64,000 nt of DNA, from positions 124,001 to 188,000 of the forward strand of contig JANXOD010000020.1 in the NCBI GenBank assembly GCA_025353765.1. The letters run 5' to 3'. This document shows positions 11,360-22,460 of the stretch, piece by piece. Numbering within the stretch: the first letter of the stretch is position 1; each line of letters starts with the position of its first letter. Under the pieces are notes generated by a model. It worked only from the letters and a program-made list of their open reading frames with translations. It did not search any database and had not been told where the DNA came from. Source of the DNA: Sphingobacteriales bacterium (GTDB taxonomy: Bacteria > Bacteroidota > Bacteroidia > Sphingobacteriales > Sphingobacteriaceae). Both the position numbers and the translations under genes were made by a program.

Positions 11360-11434
11360 GGGAGATTAGCTCAGCTGGTTCAGAGCACCTGCCTTACAAG
11401 CAGGGGGTCACTGGTTCGAACCCAGTATCTCCCA
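11360..11434 (+). tRNA. tRNA-Val (anticodon TAC)
   Basis: A 75-nt cloverleaf can be folded by eye. The acceptor arm pairs GGGAGAT with ATCTCCC, discriminator A. The anticodon stem CCTGC/GCAGG encloses the loop CTTACAA, giving anticodon TAC (valine). The T arm pairs ACTGG with CCAGT around TTCGAAC. CCA is not encoded. The 3' half from 11389 is repeated at 22414-22460, so this is the island's integration site; the gene stays intact because the repeat restores the 3' end. Confidence 0.97.
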
Positions 11435-11435
11435 C
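11389..11435 (+). repeat. attL: 47-bp direct repeat within tRNA-Val
   Basis: The segment from the anticodon stem to the base after the discriminator is identical to 22414-22460. Sequence diverges outside on both sides. This copy belongs to the complete tRNA. Confidence 0.93.
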
Positions 11436-11444
11436 CTGATTATC

Positions 11445-11484
11445 AAGCACTTATAGTTTATTATACTGTAAGTGCTTTTTATTT
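11445..11484 (+). terminator. Island-supplied terminator after tRNA-Val
   Basis: AAGCACTTA (11445-11453) pairs with TAAGTGCTT (11469-11477), followed by a T-rich run. It lies just inside the island, so it replaces the native terminator that was displaced to the right of attR. Confidence 0.75.
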
Positions 11485-11508
11485 GCATATAGTTTGCATA
11501 TAGTTTGC
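11482..11508 (+). repeat. Left arm-type sites (TTTGCATATAG repeats)
   Basis: TTTGCATATAG occurs at 11482-11492 and 11493-11503, with a partial third copy (TTTGC) at 11504, an 11-bp period. The same word in the same orientation is at 22290-22300, with a shorter copy at 22279-22286, beside the integrase gene. Direct repeats inside both ends of a tRNA-borne element are typical integrase arm-binding sites. Confidence 0.7.
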
Positions 11509-11766
11509 TCTTTTATTAATATTTGTAATACTTGTAGTATCTGTTTTTTCAACCCATTTCTAAATTTGAGTTTTATGATATAAGGCCATGATATGTTAAT
11601 CTATATTTAATAATAAAGGCAGTAGATTTTGTAAATGATGAAAGTTTCCCTTTTTTATGGAGTCGGAAAATTCATCCATTTTTTTATTTTAATATTGGGG
11701 GTTGATGCTTTGAATATATTTAAATTAGATAATATTTGTGTTGTTAATACAAACAGATATACAATA
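11509..11766. other. Left-end non-coding region of the island
   Basis: The stretch between the arm sites and the first island gene is very AT-rich. Its one distinct item is the repeat unit at 11646-11672. A frame runs from ATG 11635 into the next gene, but its composition (Phe/Leu/Ile-rich, low complexity) argues that it is untranslated leader. No other feature is seen. Confidence 0.5.
11646..11672 (+). repeat. 27-bp internal direct repeat, copy 1
   Basis: Matches 16050-16076 in the same orientation with one mismatch (base 17 of the unit, G here and C there). The unit reads TTCCC, six T, ATGGA, then TCGGAAAATT after the variable base. Both copies are in non-coding sequence. Confidence 0.75.
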
Positions 11767-12030
11767 ATGAAGAAAGTACCAACAGAAACAGTGTTAAGAG
11801 TCGCCTACATAGCTAATTCCGAATCTAAAAAGGAAACTGCTCCAAGAGTGGACAATGTGGCTTTGCGGATTCAAAGAAGGTATCATGCAGATTTTCGGAA
11901 GGCTTTAAAAGAGCATGCAGAACTAATAAAGGAAATGCAAAAGAGAGTTCCGGGATGGATGCCAACAATGCCAACAGAGGAAGAAATGAAAAAAGCCCTG
12001 CGCAAACAGAGCTTGTTAGTTAATAAATAA
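11767..12030 (+). CDS. Hypothetical island protein, 87 residues
   Basis: An 87-residue basic protein, Lys/Arg/Glu-rich and mostly helical by composition, with no membrane segment. I choose the ATG at 11767 over the in-frame ATG at 11635, because the upstream 44 codons are AT-rich low-complexity sequence and contain a repeat unit found elsewhere as non-coding DNA. It ends inside a terminator-like inverted repeat. It is one of only two island genes running rightward. No family recognised. Confidence 0.55.
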   Translation: MKKVPTETVLRVAYIANSESKKETAPRVDNVALRIQRRYHADFRKALKEHAELIKEMQKRVPGWMPTMPTEEEMKKALRKQSLLVNK

Positions 12031-12067
12031 ATATTATTGAGAATGAATAACTAACAAGCCGTTTTTT
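12011..12067 (+). terminator. Terminator-like hairpin
   Basis: GCTTGTTAGTTA (12011-12022) pairs perfectly with TAACTAACAAGC (12048-12059), followed by C-G and a run of seven T. The first arm covers the last codons of the 87-residue gene. Confidence 0.7.
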
Positions 12068-12098
12068 TGTATTAAAATAGAATTAGACTTATTAAGTA

Positions 12099-12257
12099 AT
12101 GAAAATATTACAATTATACCCTTCGCCAGAACCTCAAAAAGCACCCACAAAGAGGGAGTTAAGGTCTGAATTTGCCGAAAGAGTTTGGAGAAATATTGAA
12201 AACAACTTAGTAAAACAATACGAAAAGAAAAAAGCCAAAGAGAATCCCAAGCTTTAG
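12099..12257 (+). CDS. Small hypothetical island protein, 52 residues
   Basis: An open frame from ATG 12099 to TAG 12257 encodes a 52-residue highly charged peptide starting MKILQLYPSPEPQKAP and ending KKKAKENPKL. It has the same direction and the same Lys/Glu-rich style as the 87-residue gene just upstream. Its coding status rests on composition and on the clean start after the terminator. Confidence 0.4.
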   Translation: MKILQLYPSPEPQKAPTKRELRSEFAERVWRNIENNLVKQYEKKKAKENPKL

Positions 12258-12393
12258 ATCAAAACTTGAATTGCTAACAAAAAAAACGTCCAGAGAGCGA
12301 CTGATACTGGTTTCAGTATTATAATAAACAATCCCTTTACATACAAGTCCGAAATTCCTTATTCTCCCTCCTCTATCCAAATGGTAGGCCGCT

Positions 12394-12849
12394 TCATTCT
12401 AATTCGCCATGCTCCCTGAATGAATGATAACTATTTTTTGATATTATTACGTGGTCTAACAACATTATATCCATAAAGCTTGCAGCTTGCTTTAATTTGT
12501 TGGTTAAGGCAAGGTCTTCATTTGATGGATTACAGTTACCCATTGGATGATTGTGTGCAATTATTATTTTACTTGCCAAGCATCCCAAGGCTATTGCCAG
12601 TAAAAGCTTAACATCCATAACAAAAGAATTTGAAGTGCCTATAGCTAAACATTTCCAACATATCACTTTATTGTCGTGGTTTACATACAATACATATACC
12701 TGTTCAATTATATTGAAAAGCTCCTTATCCCAAATCCCTTTTAAAAATTTAATGCATGTCGTAGAAGAATTGATATAGACTGGCTTAACAATAGGCTCAA
12801 AGCACACGTGCAACATTCCGGGAATACTTATATTGTTTATTTTTTTCAT
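12394..12849 (-). CDS. RadC-like JAMM/MPN-domain protein B
   Basis: A 151-residue protein that is almost entirely a RadC-type JAB/MPN domain. The metal-site pattern is complete: Glu49 in NIIEQVYVLYVN, His99 and His101 in IIAHNHP, Ser109 and Asp112 in NPSNED, then LLDHVII and the closing S-F-R-E-H-G. The N-terminal helix-hairpin-helix region of housekeeping RadC is missing. Stand-alone RadC-like proteins are common in mobile elements, and their role is not settled. It overlaps the upstream paralogue by 4 bp (ATGA), implying coupled translation. Confidence 0.8.
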   Translation of the reverse strand: MKKINNISIPGMLHVCFEPIVKPVYINSSTTCIKFLKGIWDKELFNIIEQVYVLYVNHDNKVICWKCLAIGTSNSFVMDVKLLLAIALGCLASKIIIAHNHPMGNCNPSNEDLALTNKLKQAASFMDIMLLDHVIISKNSYHSFREHGELE

Positions 12850-13376
12850 TTTAGCCCTCCCTTCTCCATGAATGAGTAATGCCCAAATTGGGATAAAATA
12901 ACATGATCTATTAATTTCAACCCCAAATATTTAGCATCATCATTTAATTTTTTGGTTAGTACCCTATCTGGATCGGAGGGGTTAGGATTGCCAATTGGAT
13001 GATTATGCGATACGATTATTTTACTTGCAAGGCAGGTAATTGCCATGGCTAATAGTAACTTAACATCTATCATGCATTCATCGGCAGAACCTGTATTTAA
13101 GCATGTCCAACTAATAAGTGAATTGTATTTATCTAAAAAAACAACATAGAACTGCTCTTGAATATTAAATAGATTGTTATCCCAGATAATGTTTAAAAAT
13201 CTAACACAATCAGAAGTTGATTCTATTTTAATGTTTTTGCGTGTCGGCTTAAAGCTTACCTGCAACATCCTGCTTTTGAACTCTTTGTATATCGTAATGC
13301 TATTATCTTTGTATATCGTACTGCTATTAAAAGAGGTTTCAAACAGATTGCGGGAGTTATTTGTTATAGTATTCAT
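12846..13376 (-). CDS. RadC-like JAMM/MPN-domain protein A
   Basis: A 176-residue paralogue of the next gene, with an added N-terminal tail of about 35 residues that is Ser/Asn-rich and contains the near-repeat YKDNSITIYK. JAMM residues are Glu74, His124, His126, Ser134 and Asp137. It overlaps its neighbours by 4 bp on both sides. The two paralogues share the layout CVRFLN.IWD.NLFNI.EQFYV, so they arose by duplication but have diverged well beyond recent copies. Confidence 0.8.
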   Translation of the reverse strand: MNTITNNSRNLFETSFNSSTIYKDNSITIYKEFKSRMLQVSFKPTRKNIKIESTSDCVRFLNIIWDNNLFNIQEQFYVVFLDKYNSLISWTCLNTGSADECMIDVKLLLAMAITCLASKIIVSHNHPIGNPNPSDPDRVLTKKLNDDAKYLGLKLIDHVILSQFGHYSFMEKGGLK

Positions 13377-13570
13377 GCTAAGCCCTCCTTTCTCAAAAAA
13401 GCTTCATAATCAAAAGAAGACAATACATCATTTGTTGAATAATCATCAGCAAATAACTCATTAGCAAGAGTAGTAATTACAATTGGGGGGATTTGGCCGT
13501 TTCGTGAGCCAGACGCAGTTACAACGCTACTTACTGTAGGTTGAGCCTGAGTGTTGATATTGTTCTGCAT
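13373..13570 (-). CDS. Small island protein leading the JAMM operon, 65 residues
   Basis: A 65-residue Ser/Thr/Asn-rich protein with an apparently disordered first half and an acidic second half (FADDYSTNDVLSSFDYEAF), no recognised family. Its stop overlaps the start of JAMM protein A by 4 bp, so three genes run as one coupled unit. Its start codon lies next to an 11-bp inverted-repeat arm, so initiation may be structure-controlled. Confidence 0.6.
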   Translation of the reverse strand: MQNNINTQAQPTVSSVVTASGSRNGQIPPIVITTLANELFADDYSTNDVLSSFDYEAFLRKEGLA

Positions 13571-13662
13571 TTAATGTGGTTAAAATAACCCGGAGGCTGC
13601 AGAACAATCTATTACCGTTTAGGGAAAAGGAAAAATTACCAGGCCAACTGGCTCCTCCGGGT
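13559..13662 (-). promoter_or_regulatory. Interleaved inverted repeats before the JAMM operon
   Basis: Arm A, ATTGTTCTGCA (13559-13569), is the exact complement of A', TGCAGAACAAT (13598-13608). Arm B, ACCCGGAGG (13588-13596), is the exact complement of B', CCTCCGGGT (13654-13662). The order A-B-A'-B' interleaves, as in a pseudoknot or two competing hairpins. Arm A lies within the first codons of the 65-residue gene. The GC-rich B arms stand out in an AT-rich region. Confidence 0.6.
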
Positions 13663-13815
13663 AGGTTGTTAAATAAGATGAAATCTAAAGGTGATTTCCT
13701 AAACATAATGAAAATGATAAAAAATTATTCTGCATTGCTAATATGCAAATAATAAATAGGAATCATGCAAATTATTTTAGAAAATATAAATCACTATCTA
13801 AAAAGCATGAAAACA

Positions 13816-15753
13816 TTAATATAATTTCACTAATTCAACTTGTGTAGGTCTACCTTTAATCCAGTTGGATACCTTGTTAATATAAAAATATGACGATTCT
13901 TGTTCTAAATAAACAGGAATCATTAAATCTAATTCTGCAATATCAATAGGAGACAGAATAAAAAATGCTCCTATTTTCTTTGGTCGGTGTAACAACCTTT
14001 GTATGGCTTGGTAATACGTTTTACGTAAGTAATCAAAGCTTAACGATTCCTCAATAGCTGGATTTTCAAAGTAAGGTAAGCTTACTATTCCACTTACATT
14101 AACTGGCACGCCTCCATCTGTAAAACTAAATATCTTACCTGTCTGTGAAAGATCGACTTTGTTGTCAATCAATAAACGGGGTTGTGTGCTGATTGTAAAA
14201 TCAGTCGCATCGGTAGTTTCCAGCTTCTTAATTAAAGCACATGAAAACCCGTTTATCGTACTACCTACGCTGGCTGCAAAAATACTTTCAATGATATTGG
14301 TTTGCAGAGGCAAGGTTAAATCATCGATTGGGATGGAAGATTTTCCTAGCTTAGCAGGAACATTATCATCCGGCTTGCAGATCATGTCGTTATTTTGTGC
14401 ATAGCTCCCTAATTGGAAAAAGGTAGTTTTCCCCTGATCAACCACTTTCTTTGACCAGTCCTTTGCCTTGGGAATGTTCTTTATAATATCATCAAAATGA
14501 TTAAAGGCTATTTCTTTCTTATTGGGATTTGAGCTGCATATTATACCAAAATGCTGAAAGGTATCTTTTAATAATTCCTTCTGGCTAATATCCGGGAATA
14601 TCATTTCAGCATCTATCTCTTGCCCATAGGCTAAATCTGCTGCTGTATTGGTTATGGTTAATGTTGCACCTGCATAAATAATCCCTCGCGGAACAAATGA
14701 ACCCGGTATTTCAATTACAGCCCTGATCTTATCTCCTACCTGTAAATCTATATCAAAAATTAACGGCTGATTATAAAAGTAATTGGGATTAACAAAGTCG
14801 ACCATGGTATGGGTATTATATGGCCCGTCCACCCACCCTGACCCATCATTTGATTGTAGTTTTACCAGAATATTAGGATCTGATGCAGGGAGTATTTTTT
14901 GAACCGATGCATCGTATTTTAGTTTAACATTGGCTTTTATATTTTCTTTTGCGGTATACACGGATTGTGCTACTTCATAGCTATTTGATGGATCGGATAT
15001 AATTGAAGTAAATAGTATTGTCGCGCTTGGTGTTACGGAAATCTGGTCTGTTGACTTCTGAACGGAAGCGCTGGTGTTGGCTGCTTTTTCTTTAAACAAT
15101 TCGCCATGCTCAAAGCTATCATTGGCAAAAGCCACAATGAGCTTATTATACAAAGCCGAATTAAACATGCTTCCGGTTGCCTTATACCCCGTAGTTTTTA
15201 CAATTTCATCTACAATGGTTTTTAGATAGAAAGCAGGGCGTAGATTTTTTACATTTATATGCTCACCAACATCACCAGTAAAACCTCCGTAGTCAATAAC
15301 TGGCCATAATAAGCCTTCTGTTTTGGTTTGCGATGCAACTACATTTGCCAAAGTCCATTTCTGGCTGTATTTAGCCAGTTCTTTGTACATATCGTATATC
15401 TTAATATTCAGTAGATCAAAGAAATCTACATTGCCGGATAATACCGTTATGTCTGCTGTACTGTTATCCGTTTGTTTAATTTCGGCAAACCCGTTAGGGA
15501 TAACTTCGATTCCATCTTGGATGATCTTTGCTGCATACTTACGGTATGGCAATACGGTAGTAAACTGTGTTTCGCTTGGATAACCAAGTATGCGCCTGTT
15601 TTTGGAAGTTAGAGGTAGTTTGAACTGGTTAGATGTATTACCGCTCTGGCTCTTTACATCCGCTAAGTCATTGATTCCAAACTGCAATGTGATAGGATTA
15701 TCGTCTGATAGATCAACTAACTCGTCATTGAGATATAACTCTATTTTTTGCAT
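13816..15753 (-). CDS. Phage-virion-like protein (tail/baseplate type)
   Basis: A 645-residue protein that I match by memory to a family of Bacteroidota prophage structural proteins. It starts with IELYLNDELVDLSDDNP and a GNTSNQFKLPLT segment, is beta-rich with many IDLQVGDKI-type strands, and ends in SSYFYINKVSNWIKGRPTQVELVKL. There is no signal peptide or membrane helix. It is the only structural-looking gene of size in the island. No tape measure, portal or capsid is adjacent, so it either modifies a helper phage particle or is left over from a prophage. Assignment to tail or baseplate is inference. Confidence 0.5.
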   Translation of the reverse strand: MQKIELYLNDELVDLSDDNPITLQFGINDLADVKSQSGNTSNQFKLPLTSKNRRILGYPSETQFTTVLPYRKYAAKIIQDGIEVIPNGFAEIKQTDNSTADITVLSGNVDFFDLLNIKIYDMYKELAKYSQKWTLANVVASQTKTEGLLWPVIDYGGFTGDVGEHINVKNLRPAFYLKTIVDEIVKTTGYKATGSMFNSALYNKLIVAFANDSFEHGELFKEKAANTSASVQKSTDQISVTPSATILFTSIISDPSNSYEVAQSVYTAKENIKANVKLKYDASVQKILPASDPNILVKLQSNDGSGWVDGPYNTHTMVDFVNPNYFYNQPLIFDIDLQVGDKIRAVIEIPGSFVPRGIIYAGATLTITNTAADLAYGQEIDAEMIFPDISQKELLKDTFQHFGIICSSNPNKKEIAFNHFDDIIKNIPKAKDWSKKVVDQGKTTFFQLGSYAQNNDMICKPDDNVPAKLGKSSIPIDDLTLPLQTNIIESIFAASVGSTINGFSCALIKKLETTDATDFTISTQPRLLIDNKVDLSQTGKIFSFTDGGVPVNVSGIVSLPYFENPAIEESLSFDYLRKTYYQAIQRLLHRPKKIGAFFILSPIDIAELDLMIPVYLEQESSYFYINKVSNWIKGRPTQVELVKLY

Positions 15754-15764
15754 TACTGATTTTA

Positions 15765-16016
15765 TTAAAGTTGAACCCTTTTTTCATCGAAAGCAAGTGG
15801 TATATCACATCTTAAAACGGCTATATCTATTCTGTTTTTTAGCCCCTGAATGCTTTTTAGTTCACTTCGGCTTAATATCTCGCCTTCATCATTTTGATAC
15901 GTGCCTTCGCTAGTTTCTTTCCAAATAACTATCCTTAACTTATCAAAAGCATCTTTGGCAGTCGCTTCGCCTCTAATGATGCTTTTTAATCTTAAAATTT
16001 TTTCTTCTCTATTCAT
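15765..16016 (-). CDS. Hypothetical island protein, 83 residues
   Basis: An 83-residue charged protein beginning MNREEKILRLKSIIRGEATAKDAF, probably helical, no cysteine pairs or membrane segment. It lies between the TerS-like gene and the virion-like gene in the same direction, 11 bp before the latter, so they are likely co-expressed. No family recognised. Confidence 0.65.
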   Translation of the reverse strand: MNREEKILRLKSIIRGEATAKDAFDKLRIVIWKETSEGTYQNDEGEILSRSELKSIQGLKNRIDIAVLRCDIPLAFDEKRVQL

Positions 16017-16049
16017 CTTATATTTTATTTAATTTGTTAATCCTTATAC

Positions 16050-16076
16050 TTCCCTTTTTTATGGACTCGGAAAATT
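16050..16076 (+). repeat. 27-bp internal direct repeat, copy 2
   Basis: One mismatch to 11646-11672 in the same orientation. It lies between the stop of the TerS-like gene and the start of the 83-residue gene. The two copies flank a 4.4-kb segment with the JAMM operon and the virion-like gene. Confidence 0.75.
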
Positions 16077-16092
16077 ATTTGTAGCCTTTCCA

Positions 16093-16389
16093 TCAGCTGT
16101 TTTTTAGCTCCTCTACCAAATTGTTTAATTCCTCATCGGTCAAGCGATCAATCATTTTTTCTGTTTCATCAGTATAGGCGACACTTGATAATTTAGGGAT
16201 ACTATAACTCATAAGTTTTTCTAAAAAATGAAGCTTATCCTTTGGCTCTAGCTTGCTAAACTCTATTTGTACTGCTTCCCAGTTATCGGTAATAAAATCA
16301 GCAACTTTTGATCTGATATTAAATACTACCTTATTTTTTGCTCCTTTCGGCTTTCCGGGGTTACCGGGTTTAAATTTTGTATCCTTCAT
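16093..16389 (-). CDS. TerS/DUF5681-like small DNA-binding protein
   Basis: A 98-residue protein opening with KFKPGNPGKPKGAKNK, the basic N-terminal signature of DUF5681-type proteins and of some phage small terminase-like proteins. A helical part follows, including SKLEPKDKLHFLEKLMSY and IPKLSS, and an acidic tail. Small terminase subunits recognise the packaging site; satellites often carry their own to redirect packaging. I choose the ATG at 16389, because an earlier in-frame ATG at 16440 would place a perfect hairpin inside the coding sequence. The terminase role is not proven; other DUF5681 proteins have no known function. Confidence 0.5.
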   Translation of the reverse strand: MKDTKFKPGNPGKPKGAKNKVVFNIRSKVADFITDNWEAVQIEFSKLEPKDKLHFLEKLMSYSIPKLSSVAYTDETEKMIDRLTDEELNNLVEELKNS

Positions 16390-16404
16390 TACATTTACGG
16401 CTAA

Positions 16405-16427
16405 ACAGCCCGTATTTAACGGGCTGT
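16405..16427 (-). terminator. Perfect hairpin between two island genes
   Basis: ACAGCCCGT and ACGGGCTGT form a 9-bp perfect stem with a 5-nt loop. It lies just after the stop of the 229-residue gene and just before the TerS-like start. On the minus strand it is followed by only a short T run, so it may attenuate rather than fully terminate. Confidence 0.6.
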
Positions 16428-16442
16428 AATTCATTCCCATAG

Positions 16443-17132
16443 TTAAATACCTCTTTGCTTCAATTCTTTGAAAATTTGTATGTTAGGTTTAAAACTATTG
16501 CGGCTCAATTCGATAAAACGATCAAGTTTTATTCCATTCACTTTATAAGTGTGCTCGGTTAAATCATGGAATAGTGAGGAATAAAGAGTTTCGTTAGCCG
16601 CTTTCTCAATATTATCAATAGCTATTATTAAGTTGTTTATCAAGCCCTGAAATTCAAATTGCTTTGGAGTATCAATATAAAACGAACACCTTTCTATATC
16701 ATCGCTAACCCTATCTTCATCAACTACAATTGTGTTATTTAAAATCTTGAAATATTCAATAGAAACATATTTATTGTCAATTAAACTATGTACTTCGAAA
16801 TAATATTTTACGTTTTCCATAACGCTGCTCATGTCTGGAAGAGCGACTAAGTTTATGCCCGCTGCTGGAAGTATCCCAATATTTCTATGAGCTTCGCCAT
16901 ATTTCCTCTCATAGAAATCTTCTTTAGTTTCCTTATTGAAAGTTTCAGGATTATTAAAGAGATTGTGGAGATCCTCTGTTACCAATTCTTTGAGTTCTGG
17001 GATTTCATTCCATTTTTTTAGTGTGTCTTCCATAAGGGGCTTAGTACCTTTAATGCCCTCTTTTAAATTTGCAATGCTGATTTCGTCTCTGAAAATCAAT
17101 TGCTTTTCTGCTGCTTTTTTTTCTGCTTTCAT
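16443..17132 (-). CDS. Hypothetical island protein, 229 residues
   Basis: A 229-residue soluble protein starting MKAEKKAAEKQLIF, Lys/Glu-rich in the first third, then mixed alpha/beta with many Asn and Ile. It has no membrane segment and no motif I recognise. It is placed 30 bp after the VirE_N-type gene and before the TerS-like gene, so it belongs to the replication-to-packaging stretch of the island. Confidence 0.6.
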   Translation of the reverse strand: MKAEKKAAEKQLIFRDEISIANLKEGIKGTKPLMEDTLKKWNEIPELKELVTEDLHNLFNNPETFNKETKEDFYERKYGEAHRNIGILPAAGINLVALPDMSSVMENVKYYFEVHSLIDNKYVSIEYFKILNNTIVVDEDRVSDDIERCSFYIDTPKQFEFQGLINNLIIAIDNIEKAANETLYSSLFHDLTEHTYKVNGIKLDRFIELSRNSFKPNIQIFKELKQRGI

Positions 17133-17162
17133 TTTTATTTATTTATGATTTATTAAAATTTA

Positions 17163-18092
17163 TTAAACTGTTTTACCATATCCTAAAGCTCGGAGCTTAC
17201 GCCCGCATAGCTTAATATCTCCACCGCATTCCAATTGGCAATACACACTTACGTTGTTGTATGCCTTATTAGGCAATTCTAAGCCCGTGGCTGCATCATC
17301 GCTAAAAAGATATAGTAGTTTGCGTTCTGTGCAATAATCAGCGCTAATACCCCTTTCTTTCCCAGGTCTGGCATATCGGTGCCGAGTGCCTTTATCGTGT
17401 TTAGGCTGATATGTCCATCCGTAAGCAATAAGCAAACTTTCAACATCCCCCGATTGGTTAAAAGCATCAAAGGGATTTAAATCGGTACTTCCTACAGCCT
17501 TTGGCTCATAGGGTTTTTTAGACTTTACAGGTACTTCATAAGTATAATTGAATACTTCTGCACTATGGTTAAAATATGCATTCCTATCTACTGAATAATA
17601 GCGGAAGCGTGCTATGTCCTTTACCGCTATATCAAAGTATGGCCTATCAATTCCTAATGATTTAAAATAAAGCTGTAAAGCATCAAAATGTTGATTAAAC
17701 TTAGCAGGGTTGCTGATTGGAACCAATCCCCAATACCCTGATCCACTTACAGATAACCCGCAATAGGCTACATAAGGCATATTGGTAATGATGGAATAAA
17801 ACAGATCTAATTTTTCAGCCGGGATTTTATCTATGTCAAAGCTTATTAAACCTGTACGGGTTACAACGTTTTGCTCATTGCGTGTTGGATAGCATATTGC
17901 TGAAGGTGTTATACCCGGTAACTTTGCTTTCAATTCGTCCCGTTCTGCTTTAGTGGTTTTTGAGCGTATTTCTGCAACATAGTTTTCAAGTGAATAATCA
18001 GATAAATAACTTAATAAGTTGCGCTCAATAGGGTTTTTGCCTGAATAATGATTGTAGTATGATACTGTTACATTTAATATTGAATTTTCCAT
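17163..18092 (-). CDS. BT4734/VirE_N-type primase-like protein
   Basis: A 309-residue protein matching the BT4734-like/VirE N-terminal domain, a branch of the archaeo-eukaryotic primase fold common in Bacteroidota mobile DNA. Visible hallmarks are ITPSAICYPTR (61-71), the acidic F-D-I-D at 85-88, SVSGSGYWGLVPI (114-126) and the PYFDIAVKDIARFRYYS stretch, where the last acidic residues lie. With the RepA-like ATPase next to it, it forms a probable primase-helicase replication module. The C-terminal 100 residues, GWTYQPKHDKGTRHRYARPGK onward split by a Cys-containing strand, resemble the small domain that follows primases in these elements. Confidence 0.75.
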   Translation of the reverse strand: MENSILNVTVSYYNHYSGKNPIERNLLSYLSDYSLENYVAEIRSKTTKAERDELKAKLPGITPSAICYPTRNEQNVVTRTGLISFDIDKIPAEKLDLFYSIITNMPYVAYCGLSVSGSGYWGLVPISNPAKFNQHFDALQLYFKSLGIDRPYFDIAVKDIARFRYYSVDRNAYFNHSAEVFNYTYEVPVKSKKPYEPKAVGSTDLNPFDAFNQSGDVESLLIAYGWTYQPKHDKGTRHRYARPGKERGISADYCTERKLLYLFSDDAATGLELPNKAYNNVSVYCQLECGGDIKLCGRKLRALGYGKTV

Positions 18093-18207
18093 CTTTTTAT
18101 CTTTACTGGTTTACTGATTTAAATCAGTAGATTTAATAATACCACTGTACTGGTTTACTGGTATTTAGCTTATATCTATGTAAGCTAAACCAGTAATACT
18201 AATAAAG

Positions 18208-19329
18208 TTATTCTACTGGTTCAGGTCTCTCTAATTGATAGTATGTATGAGGCCTTGCACCTTGTTTAAAAATTAATTGTTTATCGACATAATATTGTAT
18301 GTAGCCTTTAACCTTAGCTTCAGCAATGGAGTATCCATACCAACTATCAACCTCATTTTTAAGACTTAGCATTAAAGTGCCATATTTAGGCTTAACGTTC
18401 GCCTTAAATACCCTATTTAGTATTTCAAGGTGTGTATCCTTTGCTATTTCGCCCGGCAATAAGGCTTTTTGTTTCTTAGATGCACCTTCTTTGCCTGGTA
18501 AATAATCTTGTATGATGTAAGGCAATCCATATTCATCAATGCTAAAGGCAAAGGGCTCAGGATCAATTTCCCGGCAGAAGTCTGGGTGTATGATTGACTG
18601 CTCTTTATTTTCTGTTGATTTAGTAACTGAGTAAACCGCTTCTGCCTTATTTTGAGCCTCTGTTCCAACTGTCCCACGTACGGCTAAATCTGTTTTATTT
18701 TGATGTAAGACACATATTATACAAATATTAAGTTCCTCACTCCATTTCATTAGTTTACTGGTAATCATACTAGCCTGCTCTTCATCATTAATAGATGTTA
18801 TTAAATCCCGAAGACCATCAATTAAAACTATCCCGATATTAGGAGTATTATAAATTGTGTATTCAATAAAACTTAATCTTAAAGCAGCCGCGTATTTTCT
18901 AAGCCTGTAAACCTTTAGGTTTTCGCTTGTCTGAAGATTTGCAAGTTTTAATATTCTTCTTTGAGCATTACCAACATGGTAACTACCCATTTCGGTATCA
19001 AAAACTAATGTAACTTGCTTATCTTCATATAGATGGTTTTTTAAATGGATATTGTCAGTACATTTCTCAACTGAAAGCGAGCTTGCAACTAAAGAATGAG
19101 CAAAAAATGATTTTCGACTTTTTGCCTTACCTGTAATTACTACAAAGTTACCCAAGGTGCATAGAGTATATTCTTTACCATCCTGTGAAACCGTAAGGGC
19201 TATTTCAGGCTTTGCAATAAACCCTGTTTGGCTAACTAAAGATTCTTGATCTATACTTAAATAGTCTGGTTCTTCGACTATCCCCGCTATTAGGCGAAGA
19301 TTTAAGGCGTTATTTTCCATTAGCCCCAC
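18208..19329 (-). CDS. RepA-like RecA-fold ATPase (AAA_25 type)
   Basis: A 373-residue P-loop ATPase. Walker A is GKAKSRKS at 67-74, and Walker B is IVLIDG at 167-172. A DTEMGSYHVGNAQRR segment at 111-125 is typical of the hexameric RepA/DnaB-related helicases of plasmids and phage islands. The C-terminal 80 residues (from about 290) form a separate winged-helix-like part ending TYYQLERPEP. It overlaps the winged-helix gene upstream by 20 bp. With the primase-like gene 115 bp downstream it is likely the island's replication unit. Confidence 0.8.
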   Translation of the reverse strand: MGLMENNALNLRLIAGIVEEPDYLSIDQESLVSQTGFIAKPEIALTVSQDGKEYTLCTLGNFVVITGKAKSRKSFFAHSLVASSLSVEKCTDNIHLKNHLYEDKQVTLVFDTEMGSYHVGNAQRRILKLANLQTSENLKVYRLRKYAAALRLSFIEYTIYNTPNIGIVLIDGLRDLITSINDEEQASMITSKLMKWSEELNICIICVLHQNKTDLAVRGTVGTEAQNKAEAVYSVTKSTENKEQSIIHPDFCREIDPEPFAFSIDEYGLPYIIQDYLPGKEGASKKQKALLPGEIAKDTHLEILNRVFKANVKPKYGTLMLSLKNEVDSWYGYSIAEAKVKGYIQYYVDKQLIFKQGARPHTYYQLERPEPVE

Positions 19330-19612
19330 CTTTCACATATTCATAAACACTAAGGTTCGTTGAATAAAACCCCGCTGTGCGTTTAGTATAAGGACAATGC
19401 CCTTTATAAACCAATACGATATTTTTTAACTTCCTTAATGCGGCAATATGCCTACAGATATTCGGGCGTAGGATTCCGGTCTCAACCTCAACCATTCGCA
19501 TAGTCTTAGGTCTTTCAAGTAGTGAATTTCCTACTATTTTTAATTCTCTTTTAAAATGATTATCTTCGTTTGCAGACAAAGAATAATGGGGGATACTATT
19601 ATGCTGATCCAT
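19310..19612 (-). CDS. Winged-helix DNA-binding protein of the island
   Basis: A 100-residue protein whose central part, RPKTMRMVEVETGILRPNIC followed by RHIAALRKLKNIV, has the pattern of a helix-turn-helix. A wing with G-H-C-P-Y-T-K-R-T-A-G-F-Y-S-T-N follows. Similar short proteins sit before RepA-like genes in Bacteroidota elements. It is 3 bp after the AlpA-type gene, and its end overlaps the ATPase start, so it is part of one operon. A regulatory role is inferred from context. Confidence 0.6.
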   Translation of the reverse strand: MDQHNSIPHYSLSANEDNHFKRELKIVGNSLLERPKTMRMVEVETGILRPNICRHIAALRKLKNIVLVYKGHCPYTKRTAGFYSTNLSVYEYVKGGANGK

Positions 19613-19615
19613 GAT

Positions 19616-19951
19616 TTATCCCCTCTTTTTATTTTGTAAAAAGGAACCAGCTTCGCTAGCAATTTCTGCTAAAGTTTTTTTTCTGCCAGCCTTAATCCAT
19701 TCAGTTAGTTCTTGCTTTGAGAAATAAAGGCGTTTCCCTCGTTTAGAAACAGGTATTTCAGATCTATGGACTAAGCCGTAAATGGTTGGTACGGACAAAC
19801 TTATTAATGAGCCGGCTTGCTCAATGGTTAAGAGACTGTCTGACTCTACAGGAGTGCGGTTACTATTGTGAAGTAGCAGCCGTTCAATATTTTCCAGTTT
19901 ATCATAGAGCTGGGTAACGGCTTTCGGTAATTGTTCAAATGTGATTTCCAT
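19616..19951 (-). CDS. AlpA/excisionase-type helix-turn-helix protein
   Basis: A 111-residue protein. Its C-terminal half reads LLTIEQAGSLISLSVPTIYG followed by LVHRSEIPVSKRGKRLYFSK, the MerR-like HTH_17 fold used by excisionases and AlpA-type activators. The N-terminal half (EITFEQLPKAVTQLYDKLENI) is coiled-coil-like. I prefer ATG 19951 over an in-frame ATG at 19984, because the intervening bases form a perfect 12-bp inverted repeat, more likely an operator. AlpA proteins are usual controllers of excision and of satellite induction. Confidence 0.8.
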   Translation of the reverse strand: MEITFEQLPKAVTQLYDKLENIERLLLHNSNRTPVESDSLLTIEQAGSLISLSVPTIYGLVHRSEIPVSKRGKRLYFSKQELTEWIKAGRKKTLAEIASEAGSFLQNKKRG

Positions 19952-19952
19952 C

Positions 19953-20031
19953 TTGCAAAGCGTTGTCTTAAAAACGCTTTGCAATACTACTAGTGGGTTT
20001 TGTAGGGTTGCAATACGGCGGGTTATAACCC
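19953..20031 (-). promoter_or_regulatory. Palindromic control region before the HTH gene
   Basis: TTGCAAAGCGTT (19953-19964) is the exact complement of AACGCTTTGCAA (19973-19984). Further upstream, GGGTTATAACCC (20020-20031) is a perfect 12-bp palindrome. TTGCAATAC occurs twice in this stretch, at about 19980 and 20009. The cluster lies in the 100 bp between the HTH gene and the RteC-like gene. Confidence 0.6.
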
Positions 20032-20052
20032 ATGTAAAACCCGTATGAGATT

Positions 20053-20979
20053 TTATGCTTTGTTTATGGAATAATTGCCTGTGGTTCTATCCTGAATAGT
20101 ATTTAAGATTGGTCTTTGGCATCTGTCCTTGTTCGATGAAATAATATCATTGAGGTAACGAATTGTATAATCTTTTACTGTTTGATTCTTATACTGGAAG
20201 TTCTTATAAATCCAATATTCGAGTTCCTTTTGTTCACAACCTGTAATGATATCAGCTTTGATTAGTTGCTTAAATGCATCTGCTAAACGGTTTCCCCTAT
20301 CTAAAAATATCAATTTTTGTGGAGCATCTGTACCATTTTTTAAAATATTCTCAAGATCCATTTGATGTTCTCTACTAAAAAAATTCTTTAATAAGTCAAA
20401 AACTGTTTGGACGGCTTCCGATTTGAAAATGGGGGTTATTAAATCGCTTGATTGAATAATATTTTGTTGGATTTGGATATTAGCACTAGTTGAATTTTCA
20501 GAATCAACCAAACCATTAAGCCAATCAACGTATGCTTCAAAAATATCAATTTCTTTCTTTATAAGACCGTTAACAGTATTAAACTTTAATAAGTTACTTT
20601 TTGATAATTTTTCTAATGTATTATTTGCTGAGATCAATTCTTGCCTATTGAATTTCTCTATATTCACCTTATCATTAAATTTTGTACCAGTATTCCTTTT
20701 TTTCTTTTCAAGGTATTTAGATAATGCTAAAAAATAATATTCCTCAATCAAGTCAGCACAATGTTTAGGAAATATTAATGGAGCTCCGTCACGAAAATAG
20801 TATTTCTTGAACCCCTCAATCCCTGAATAGATTTTATTGTCTTTATTAGAAGCAAAAATACAGTCGTATCCAGAATGATAAAAGGCTTCATAAGTAATCT
20901 CCCAGGTTGAGAACCTTTCTATACTTTCAGTACTAAATCCGTATTTTTTTAATTTTTCAATCGTTAATTTTTCAATCAT
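20053..20979 (-). CDS. Hypothetical island protein with RteC-like C-terminus
   Basis: A 308-residue protein. The last 90 residues, with KLIFLDRGNRLADAFKQLIK, a GCEQKELEYWI helix, FQYKN and YLNDIISSNKDRCQRPI, resemble the C-terminal domain of RteC-type regulators and of other proteins placed beside integrases in Bacteroidota elements. The N-terminal 200 residues are Lys/Asn-rich and unfamiliar. It is 15 bp downstream of the integrase in the same direction, so probably co-transcribed. An element-control role is inferred; a defence or cargo role cannot be excluded. Confidence 0.55.
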   Translation of the reverse strand: MIEKLTIEKLKKYGFSTESIERFSTWEITYEAFYHSGYDCIFASNKDNKIYSGIEGFKKYYFRDGAPLIFPKHCADLIEEYYFLALSKYLEKKKRNTGTKFNDKVNIEKFNRQELISANNTLEKLSKSNLLKFNTVNGLIKKEIDIFEAYVDWLNGLVDSENSTSANIQIQQNIIQSSDLITPIFKSEAVQTVFDLLKNFFSREHQMDLENILKNGTDAPQKLIFLDRGNRLADAFKQLIKADIITGCEQKELEYWIYKNFQYKNQTVKDYTIRYLNDIISSNKDRCQRPILNTIQDRTTGNYSINKA

Positions 20980-20994
20980 TCGTTATAGTTATAA

Positions 20995-22248
20995 TTAAAA
21001 ATCAATTAAGCTTTCCATTACTTCATTTTTATTGATATCCTCAAATCCTGCAAAATAGCCCTGAGTTGTTTTCATGCTGCTATGAGTGAAAGCTTCACTT
21101 ACAAATTCCATGCTTAATCCGCTTCGTATCGCATTAGTGGCAAAGCTATGCCTAGCCCAATAAGTGGATATTTCAGAAGTAATATTAACAGATTTAGCCA
21201 ATTTTTTGACATTTTGATTAATGAATCTAGTAAAATTCTTTATCGTCTTAAATTTTACTTCTTCACTCTGTATTTCATTAAGGATAGGGAAAATGAACTC
21301 TTTAGGGATTTTATTAGTATTGCCATACTTTTCTATTACTTGTTTCGCAAATTCTGTTAAATAAACTACAATTGGCCGTAAGTCTGCTTTAGCTGTGTTA
21401 ATGGTTTTTGCACGATAAAAAATAATTTTATTTTCCTGTATATCTTCATAACGAAGTAAGGCAATATCTTTAATATTCATACCATTACAGATATAACTAA
21501 AAAACCAAAAATCCCTTGCTTTAGCCTGTTCCGGCGTTTTGGCCTCAGCTTGCATCAGTTTTTTTAAATCCCCTTTTGTTAACGATTTTTTCACACTCTT
21601 GACTGCGGGAACTTGATATTTACGTTTACCAAAAGGATAACTTTCAGGATCAATTTCTTTTTCACTAATAGCCGTGTTAAATACTGTTCGTAAGGCCCTT
21701 AGATAAATTGATACTGTAGTACGACTTCGTTTTTTAGTATTTATCATATAGCTTTCATATTTTGTTAACCATGCAGGATTAATCTCGCTGAAAAATAATT
21801 TTTGGGGGTCACTGCCTTTAAAGTTAGAAAGGAATTTTTTTAAAGATTTTAAGCTTAGATCATAGTTGCTAGCTGTACCTAATTGATTATTTTCCTTTAG
21901 CTTTTTAATAATCAAATCATATTGGTAAAAGATATTTCCACCCTCACCTGCATTTCGGTATAGCTTTTTCTCGAATTGGTCAAAACTAAAAGGATTAATA
22001 GCATTAGCTACATCATTTGCCATTTTTTCAAGCGATTGTAGTTGATGTCTAACCTCCTTATGTTCCGAACGGGGCTTTGATGTTTCCCAAATACTTTCAA
22101 ACTCTTTCTTTGTAAAATAAAACTTAGTTGAGTAAAGTTTTTGTATGCGGGGGCTGGATGTAAAAACTCTGATTTTTACAGGATAAGTATCGTTTGTTTT
22201 TGCCCGGCGTGTATCAAGATAAACGGAAATAAAAGTATCTTTATTCAT
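20995..22248 (-). CDS. int: Tyrosine recombinase (island integrase)
   Basis: A 417-residue integrase. The N-terminal arm-binding domain starts FISVYLDTRRAKTNDTYPVK, followed by a SAM-like core-binding domain (about 105-200) and the catalytic domain. Catalytic residues visible are W-A-R-H-S at 364-368 (Arg366), His389 and the nucleophile Tyr398 in TTQGYF. At the usual first arginine position (TGLR) the sequence is NGMN, so Asn258 replaces it. I choose ATG 22248; an upstream in-frame ATG at 22296 would read through the arm-type repeats. It acts on the tRNA-Val site 166 bp away. Confidence 0.93.
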   Translation of the reverse strand: MNKDTFISVYLDTRRAKTNDTYPVKIRVFTSSPRIQKLYSTKFYFTKKEFESIWETSKPRSEHKEVRHQLQSLEKMANDVANAINPFSFDQFEKKLYRNAGEGGNIFYQYDLIIKKLKENNQLGTASNYDLSLKSLKKFLSNFKGSDPQKLFFSEINPAWLTKYESYMINTKKRSRTTVSIYLRALRTVFNTAISEKEIDPESYPFGKRKYQVPAVKSVKKSLTKGDLKKLMQAEAKTPEQAKARDFWFFSYICNGMNIKDIALLRYEDIQENKIIFYRAKTINTAKADLRPIVVYLTEFAKQVIEKYGNTNKIPKEFIFPILNEIQSEEVKFKTIKNFTRFINQNVKKLAKSVNITSEISTYWARHSFATNAIRSGLSMEFVSEAFTHSSMKTTQGYFAGFEDINKNEVMESLIDF

Positions 22249-22278
22249 TGCTTCTAATGCTATAAACAAATATAATGA

Positions 22279-22300
22279 TTTGCATACCATTTGCATATAG
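22279..22300 (+). repeat. Right arm-type sites
   Basis: TTTGCATA at 22279-22286 and TTTGCATATAG at 22290-22300, 11 bp apart and in the same orientation as the pair at the left end. They lie between the integrase start and attR. Confidence 0.7.
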
Positions 22301-22413
22301 ATTTAATCAATAAATAGATAGTAACACGAATTAAACTCTTTGAAATTTGCTTTTTAACAACGTTATACGCACTATCAAGTTAATATTTAATGAACTATCA
22401 AATAGTATAATTT

Positions 22414-22460
22414 CTGCCTTACAAGCAGGGGGTCACTGGTTCGAACCCAGTATCTCCCAC
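22414..22460 (+). repeat. attR: 47-bp copy of the tRNA-Val 3' half
   Basis: Identical to 11389-11435. The bases before it do not supply an acceptor or D arm, so this is not a second tRNA gene. Confidence 0.93.

Follow-up and report, generated by a model that had tools for sequence, protein, structure and literature searches.

What kind of mobile element occupies the tRNA-Val gene of a Sphingobacteriaceae bacterium when it carries an integrase, a replication module and only two recognisable phage genes? In the present study, this question was addressed for an island in a window of 64,000 nucleotides (the whole stretch analysed, from contig JANXOD010000020.1), in which two exact 47-bp direct repeats are spaced 11,025 bp apart. 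An earlier note had taken the island for a phage satellite of the phage-inducible chromosomal island (PICI) kind. We found that a satellite is the best explanation and that the gene order is PICI-like, whereas the identity as a PICI proper was not borne out, with a tail gene present. It is suggested that the island is a satellite which uses its own baseplate hub in the tails of a helper phage, and whose DUF5681-like protein marks its DNA for packaging by the helper; we put the probability of this full statement at about two in three. The satellite reading alone, without the details of hub and packaging, can be held with greater confidence. The island combines an intact integration module and attachment (att) sites with a conserved phage hub, in an element without head genes.

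The island in its tRNA-Val site

The att repeats described in the earlier note were confirmed at both ends of the island (Table 1). The 47-mer has two copies in the source genome and, since most genus mates carry one copy, the single copy is the empty state of the site. Reading from right to left, the genes are those of an integrase, orf308, an AlpA-type helix-turn-helix (HTH) protein, hth100, a RepA-like AAA_25 protein, a BT4734-like primase, orf229, the DUF5681-like protein of 115 aa, orf83, a protein of 645 aa, orf65 and two RadC-like proteins, followed by two short rightward open reading frames (ORFs). Pfam and PHROGs domains confirmed the integrase, AlpA-type, RepA-like and primase-like calls of the earlier note. 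Its statement that all genes run leftward has to be corrected, as the two short ORFs (11635-12257) run rightward and the RadC-like JAB genes close the leftward row. The coding density of the island is 90%, its GC content is 34.0% as compared with 35.9% in the remaining window, and none of its genes is visibly broken, with no fragments or frameshifts seen. In agreement with what had been noted before, no large terminase (terL), portal, capsid or tape-measure domains were found among the island proteins using Pfam and PHROGs, and no relaxase or MobC in the same searches, oriT (origin of transfer) not having been searched for. The DUF5681-like gene and the gene for the 645-aa protein are the only phage genes recognised.

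The baseplate hub and the proposed small terminase

The 645-aa protein, previously described as virion-like, matches by tblastn gp20 of Cellulophaga phage phi46:1, a virion protein proven by tandem mass spectrometry (MS/MS), whose gene adjoins the tape-measure gene. Homologues were present in 59 of 301 genomes of the family (58 besides the source genome), and the neighbourhoods that were read are phage structural modules, in the best resolved of which the small terminase gene (terS) and terL precede the hub gene and tape-measure and capsid genes follow it. A scan of viral contigs with the single protein gave nothing, and a profile and alignment scan was needed to obtain 74 IMG/VR contigs. The AlphaFold model of the protein (20 sequences; predicted local distance difference test, pLDDT, 83.9; predicted template-modelling score, pTM, 0.75) matched baseplate chain 8fqc_C1 of Agrobacterium phage Milano (Z 15.0; 301 aligned residues between positions 1 and 645) and a baseplate chain of Agrobacterium phage 7-7-1 (Z 14.8), and Foldseek retrieved the 43-kDa tail protein of prophage MuSo2 (2.4e-6); by sequence, no significant match was found in the PDB. 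Because of these structure matches and the place of its homologues beside the tape-measure gene, the protein is named a hub here, and it is predicted to be the baseplate hub of a tail.

The insert at residues 223-376 of the model resembles C1q/TNF-like structures (Z up to 16.6). Between the window hub and 12 close phages, this insert is 19% identical, as compared with 54% and 48% in the flanking parts, and from phage to phage the values are 23% as compared with 69% and 67%; the alignment within the insert is rough and its identities are accordingly approximate. Judging by these values, the C1q-like insert appears to be hypervariable. The window hub retains 47 of the 50 columns conserved in phage hubs despite an identity of 23-45% to them; hence, it is under constraint, and this conservation speaks for function and against decay.

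The last point bears on the possibility that the island is a decayed prophage, in which a complete phage of the hub family at this site lost terL, portal, tail and capsid genes and was left with TerS, hub, integrase and replication genes. We consider this unlikely. Although homologues of the TerS-like protein and of the hub both stand in the complete prophage G012, in the same order and on the same strand, and RepA-type genes are also found in prophages with terL and portal-like genes, the process would have required at least two clean internal deletions, and it would have had to leave an intact, constrained hub among genes free of fragments and frameshifts.

Phages of the L034 family (from Mucilaginibacter and relatives) are like the island in a hub about 45% identical and differ from it in a complete structural set with terS, terL, tape-measure and capsid genes. 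As a separate observation, a structural module with a 42-47% identical hub was seen in many Mucilaginibacter genomes (L034-L044) and in IMG/VR contigs (L165-L238), usually in single copy; from genome to genome, the terL and capsid proteins show roughly 65-87% identity. Such modules may belong to temperate phages that have spread with great success, or represent a domesticated particle.

A satellite might also employ its hub as a decoy, which would poison the tail assembly of the helper and protect the host without being a part of the satellite's own particle. Interference with tail assembly is an established defence strategy (PMC11364771), and the Vibrio cholerae satellite PLE11 pairs a tail-assembly inhibitor with tail parts of its own, according to PMC12987554. 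Nevertheless, a conserved hub of full length whose surface domain varies is better suited to a working tail tip than to an inhibitor, and in other islands tape-measure and tail-completion-like genes occur together, a set suited to assembly; the decoy is the least probable of the explanations weighed here.

The DUF5681-like protein had been compared with TerS in the earlier note. Taken by itself, the window protein stays below the Pfam cut-off (E=0.014); the comparison stands through its relatives, with homologues 35-49% identical in seven other genomes of the family and a class-wide profile set in which some members pass the DUF5681 cut-off. In prophage G012, the DUF5681 homologue overlaps the start of terL and the hub homologue lies just upstream of the tape-measure gene, and DUF5681-like genes overlap terL in the G202 island and in phage MW202710 too. 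Because of these overlaps, the protein is likely to be a small terminase. In the island, this candidate terS stands without a terL, none having been found there, and DUF5681-like proteins are in the TerS position at three other loci. By eye, its N-terminal GRPKG motif resembles an AT-hook; the best match to DUF5681 in the PDB (E 0.24) was not significant.

Related islands, shared replication genes and the helper

It had been proposed to look for the same gene order at tRNA genes of relatives, and capsid-less islands with int, AlpA, rep and DUF5681 were indeed found in other Bacteroidia. Within the family, islands were found by reading outward from DUF5681 homologues, and the absence of portal and capsid genes was judged by ORF content. 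Five of them lie between att repeats derived from a tRNA and lack portal and capsid genes: G250 (23-bp att, 17.6 kb; int, AlpA, a DnaB-like gene, DUF5681 twice, a tape measure of 1453 aa and a tail-completion-like gene), G174 (15-bp att, 19.2 kb; tape measure of 1528 aa), G016 (16-bp att, 20.2 kb; tape measure of 1184 aa and AbiH), G202 (15-bp att, 21.4 kb; terL and a tape-measure gene) and L130 (15-bp att, 12.0 kb; RepA, primase, DUF5681 and a 375-aa protein). In island L131 (genome G003), a tape measure is accompanied by a second tail protein, and no att is defined. Altogether, tape-measure genes are present in five Sphingobacteriaceae islands (L131, L132, L133, L134 and L137/L145), the calls being based on PHROGs for G250, G016 and L131 and on sequence reading and homology to those for G174 and G202. 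In L134, the tape-measure island of G016, the AbiH abortive-infection gene lies at 12230-13381 with a leucine-rich-repeat-like protein nearby.

Class-wide, DUF5681 relatives were present in 34 of 345 genomes. By raw count, small islands linked to a tRNA and carrying an AlpA-type gene make up at least 7 of the 20 class neighbourhoods read (L259, L261, L262, L267, L273, L274 and L275). Most of these seven have a replication-type gene, or another of similar place and size, before DUF5681, and six have an integrase and repeats of 13-21 bp which match the tRNA end and are 4.5 to 15.4 kb apart; att matches of 13-15 bp are weak by themselves, yet they coincide with tRNA 3' ends. L275 encodes a Terminase_4 small subunit (5.4e-14) and no TerL. 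The int/AlpA/rep/DUF5681 layout in capsid-less tRNA islands recurs across Bacteroidia, and since similarly reduced layouts with intact genes are found in other genera, independent decay is hardly to be expected. Of three virome scaffolds examined as possible packaged satellites (MT835752, MT836288 and MT835630), none was retained. Two are pieces of phages that include terL and other genes of structural size; the third, of 11 kb and with a tape-measure gene, does not extend far enough for a decision.

At the tRNA-Val site itself, neither another version of the island nor a full-length prophage, which had been named in advance as evidence for decay, was found among 20 genus genomes. Two other genomes, G086 and G119, also have two copies of the 47-mer, 14.2 and 10.3 kb apart, and hold unrelated small islands in the same att (L128 and L129, respectively). 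RadC-like genes are present in both; phage genes were looked for in them and none was recognised.

The replication genes raise the possibility that the island is an integrative mobilisable element (IME) with a relaxase supplied in trans, in which DUF5681 and the hub are passengers. RepA-like relatives were present in 27 of 301 genomes of the family (26 besides the source genome), and their surroundings are of three kinds. Some are IMEs that also encode MobC/NikA and a relaxase, a call made from domains in L079 and from matching gene sizes in the rest; others are prophages in which terL and portal-like genes are present (L139); and the third kind are islands with phage genes. Because of this spread, the replication module is common to several kinds of element and cannot by itself separate a satellite from an IME. 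The Bacteroidota IMEs L079-L090 are like the island in a RepA-like gene 36-38% identical and a similar backbone order; they differ in having MobC and relaxase where the island has DUF5681 and the hub, and in a primase of Toprim type, not BT4734-like. In L079, the RepA-like gene is followed by the Toprim primase, MobC/NikA and a MobA/VirD2-type relaxase. A relaxase-bearing version was the other finding said in advance to speak against a satellite; these IMEs exist, and they show a shared replication module, not an IME identity of the island. RadC-like genes, frequent on Bacteroidota mobile elements, would also fit an IME. However, relaxase and MobC were not found in the island, conjugation has no obvious need of a baseplate hub or a TerS-like protein, and a relaxase is likewise not seen in those relatives that lack capsid genes and carry tape-measure genes or TerS. 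An IME is thus improbable, slightly more so than a decayed prophage. The island primase is 62-63% identical in the Mucilaginibacter islands L075 and L076, and L076 has a TerS-like protein (PHROG 8e-5). Another island, L141 (G206), encodes a primase 65% identical to that of the window and has 19-bp repeats at a spacing of about 9.2 kb in the vicinity of tRNA-Phe, with no phage gene recognised.

Several findings weigh against the satellite proposal. No helper was found: Terminase_6N was absent from the source genome (6 of 14 control genomes were positive), and TerL of the L034 type was absent from the 20 genus genomes, a set without a positive control. The window island is known from one genome only, and it has no tape-measure gene and therefore would depend on that of the helper. 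The TerS role of DUF5681 is read from gene position alone. In addition, the likeness of the other islands lies more in layout than in sequence, as no significant alignment to positional counterparts was obtained for orf308, orf229 and orf83. The helper may be lytic, and would then leave no trace, or may have another terminase type.

In the proposed satellite cycle, the island would integrate at tRNA-Val by means of its own tyrosine integrase. After infection or induction of a helper, it would excise and, judging from the domains, replicate with its own RepA/primase pair. The DUF5681-like small terminase would then direct the large terminase of the helper to satellite DNA, as gene position in relatives suggests, and heads and most of the tail would come from the helper. 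By analogy with PLE11, the satellite-made hub would be built into the tail tip in place of that of the helper, giving chimeric tails, and the hypervariable C1q-like knob may set or adjust the contact with the cell surface.

A 27-bp sequence (26/27 identical copies) has exactly two occurrences in the 2.83-Mb genome, both within the island, and could be an operator or a packaging signal. It has no notable RNA fold and is not a general feature, as 8 of 10 other islands have no such repeat near DUF5681 and two have weak ones. Repeats of the TTTGCATA type lie near both att copies and are possible integrase arm sites. Promoter-like sites (57, against 49.3 expected, sd 7.0) were not clearly above chance, and PADLOC gave no convincing defence system on the island. 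The orf229 product has no family hits and only a marginal, non-significant local match to same-position genes of other islands; no relatives were found either among the remaining 300 genomes of the family or among viral contigs. orf308 and orf83 resemble their counterparts in other islands by position only, and orf308 also by size.

Table 1. Positions of the island features within the window
Feature	Position	Strand	Basis
tRNA-Val (tac), intact; 3' part is the left att site	11360..11436	+	ARAGORN
att repeat, left copy, 47 bp exact	11389..11435	+	repeat search; two genome copies
Two copies of TTTGCATATAG beside attL; candidate integrase arm-type sites	11481..11506	+	repeat family D2; function inferred
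orf131, rightward, no family hit	11635..12030	+	
27-bp repeat, copy 1, near attL	11646..11672	+	26/27 identical to copy 2
orf52, rightward	12099..12257	+	ORF
RadC-like JAB protein 1	12394..12849	-	Pfam RadC 6.9e-34
RadC-like JAB protein 2	12846..13376	-	Pfam RadC 2.7e-29
orf65	13373..13570	-	ORF
Predicted 645-aa tail baseplate hub; residues 223-376, inserted C1q/TNF-like domain	13816..15753	-	homologues, AlphaFold model, structure matches
orf83, small protein after the DUF5681-like gene	15765..16016	-	83-aa ORF, same position in island L259; likeness by eye
27-bp repeat, copy 2, just downstream of the TerS-like gene	16050..16076	+	repeat search
DUF5681-like protein, 115 aa, proposed small terminase	16093..16440	-	35-49% identical homologues; homologues overlap terL
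orf229	16443..17132	-	no family hits
Primase-like protein, BT4734-like N domain	17163..18092	-	Pfam 8.8e-12
RepA-like AAA_25 ATPase	18208..19329	-	Pfam AAA_25 6e-6, just under its cut-off
hth100, putative helix-turn-helix protein	19310..19612	-	no family hit; weak match to same-position gene in L077
AlpA/excisionase-type HTH_17 protein	19616..19984	-	Pfam HTH_17 1e-10; TIGR01764 above cut-off
orf308, adjoins int	20053..20979	-	no hits
Tyrosine integrase	20995..22296	-	Phage_integrase 3.6e-15, Phage_int_SAM_5 1.1e-17
Two TTTGCATA-type repeats near attR; candidate arm-type sites	22278..22303	+	repeat family D2; function inferred
att repeat, right copy	22414..22460	+	repeat search

Comparison with known satellites

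The island shares with PICIs a size of about 11 kb, the order int, alpA, rep/pri and terS (here TerS-like), the lack of terL and a specific att. It differs in its tail hub, in a TerS candidate of the DUF5681 type and in that no stl-, cpm- or ppi-type genes were recognised. The island is not a classical PICI, because it encodes a baseplate hub whereas a classical PICI has no tail or capsid genes of its own. With the capsid-forming PICIs (cf-PICIs) it has in common that a satellite carries virion genes; however, a cf-PICI provides the heads and takes its tails, and the window island contributes part of a tail and encodes neither capsid nor portal. Putative tmp genes are present in some cf-PICIs, according to the legend of Extended Data Fig. 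10 in PMC12987554.

The nearest likeness in mechanism is PLE11. According to PMC12987554, the tape-measure protein (TMP) and baseplate hub contained in PLE11 virions are those of the satellite and replace the proteins of ICP1, which gives chimeric tails; such tails were reported there in 2026 for one family only. Both elements encode a baseplate hub, and as PLE11 takes its capsid from the helper, so the window island has no capsid genes. PLE11 encodes TMP, TAC and BhuB, and the island only the hub, so that the satellite-encoded tape measure and tail chaperone of the PLE type are not in it, whereas some Sphingobacteriaceae counterparts have TMP with a tail-completion-like gene. The host phylum is another one, and homology is not implied. 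Known satellite families have been described from other phyla (PMC11389934), and no description of phage satellites of Bacteroidota was found in the open-access literature, subscription journals and preprints being outside the scope. Overall, the island is PICI-like in order and PLE-like in its tail part, in a phylum for which no satellite description was found.

As a wider and doubtful extension, the island may belong to a Bacteroidia-wide class of satellites with int, an AlpA-type regulator, rep and a DUF5681 small terminase, of which some would add a tail cassette (a hub, or a tape measure with a tail-completion protein) and form chimeric tails, with the C1q-like knob influencing receptor specificity. 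The backbones of such islands may switch between phage and conjugative transport, because the RepA module is shared with relaxase-bearing elements. In the search for such elements, a usable marker is a DUF5681 gene that follows rep within a capsid-less island at a tRNA gene. If true, the existence of a satellite in Bacteroidota that has a tail hub of its own would point to the takeover of tails as a general strategy of satellites.

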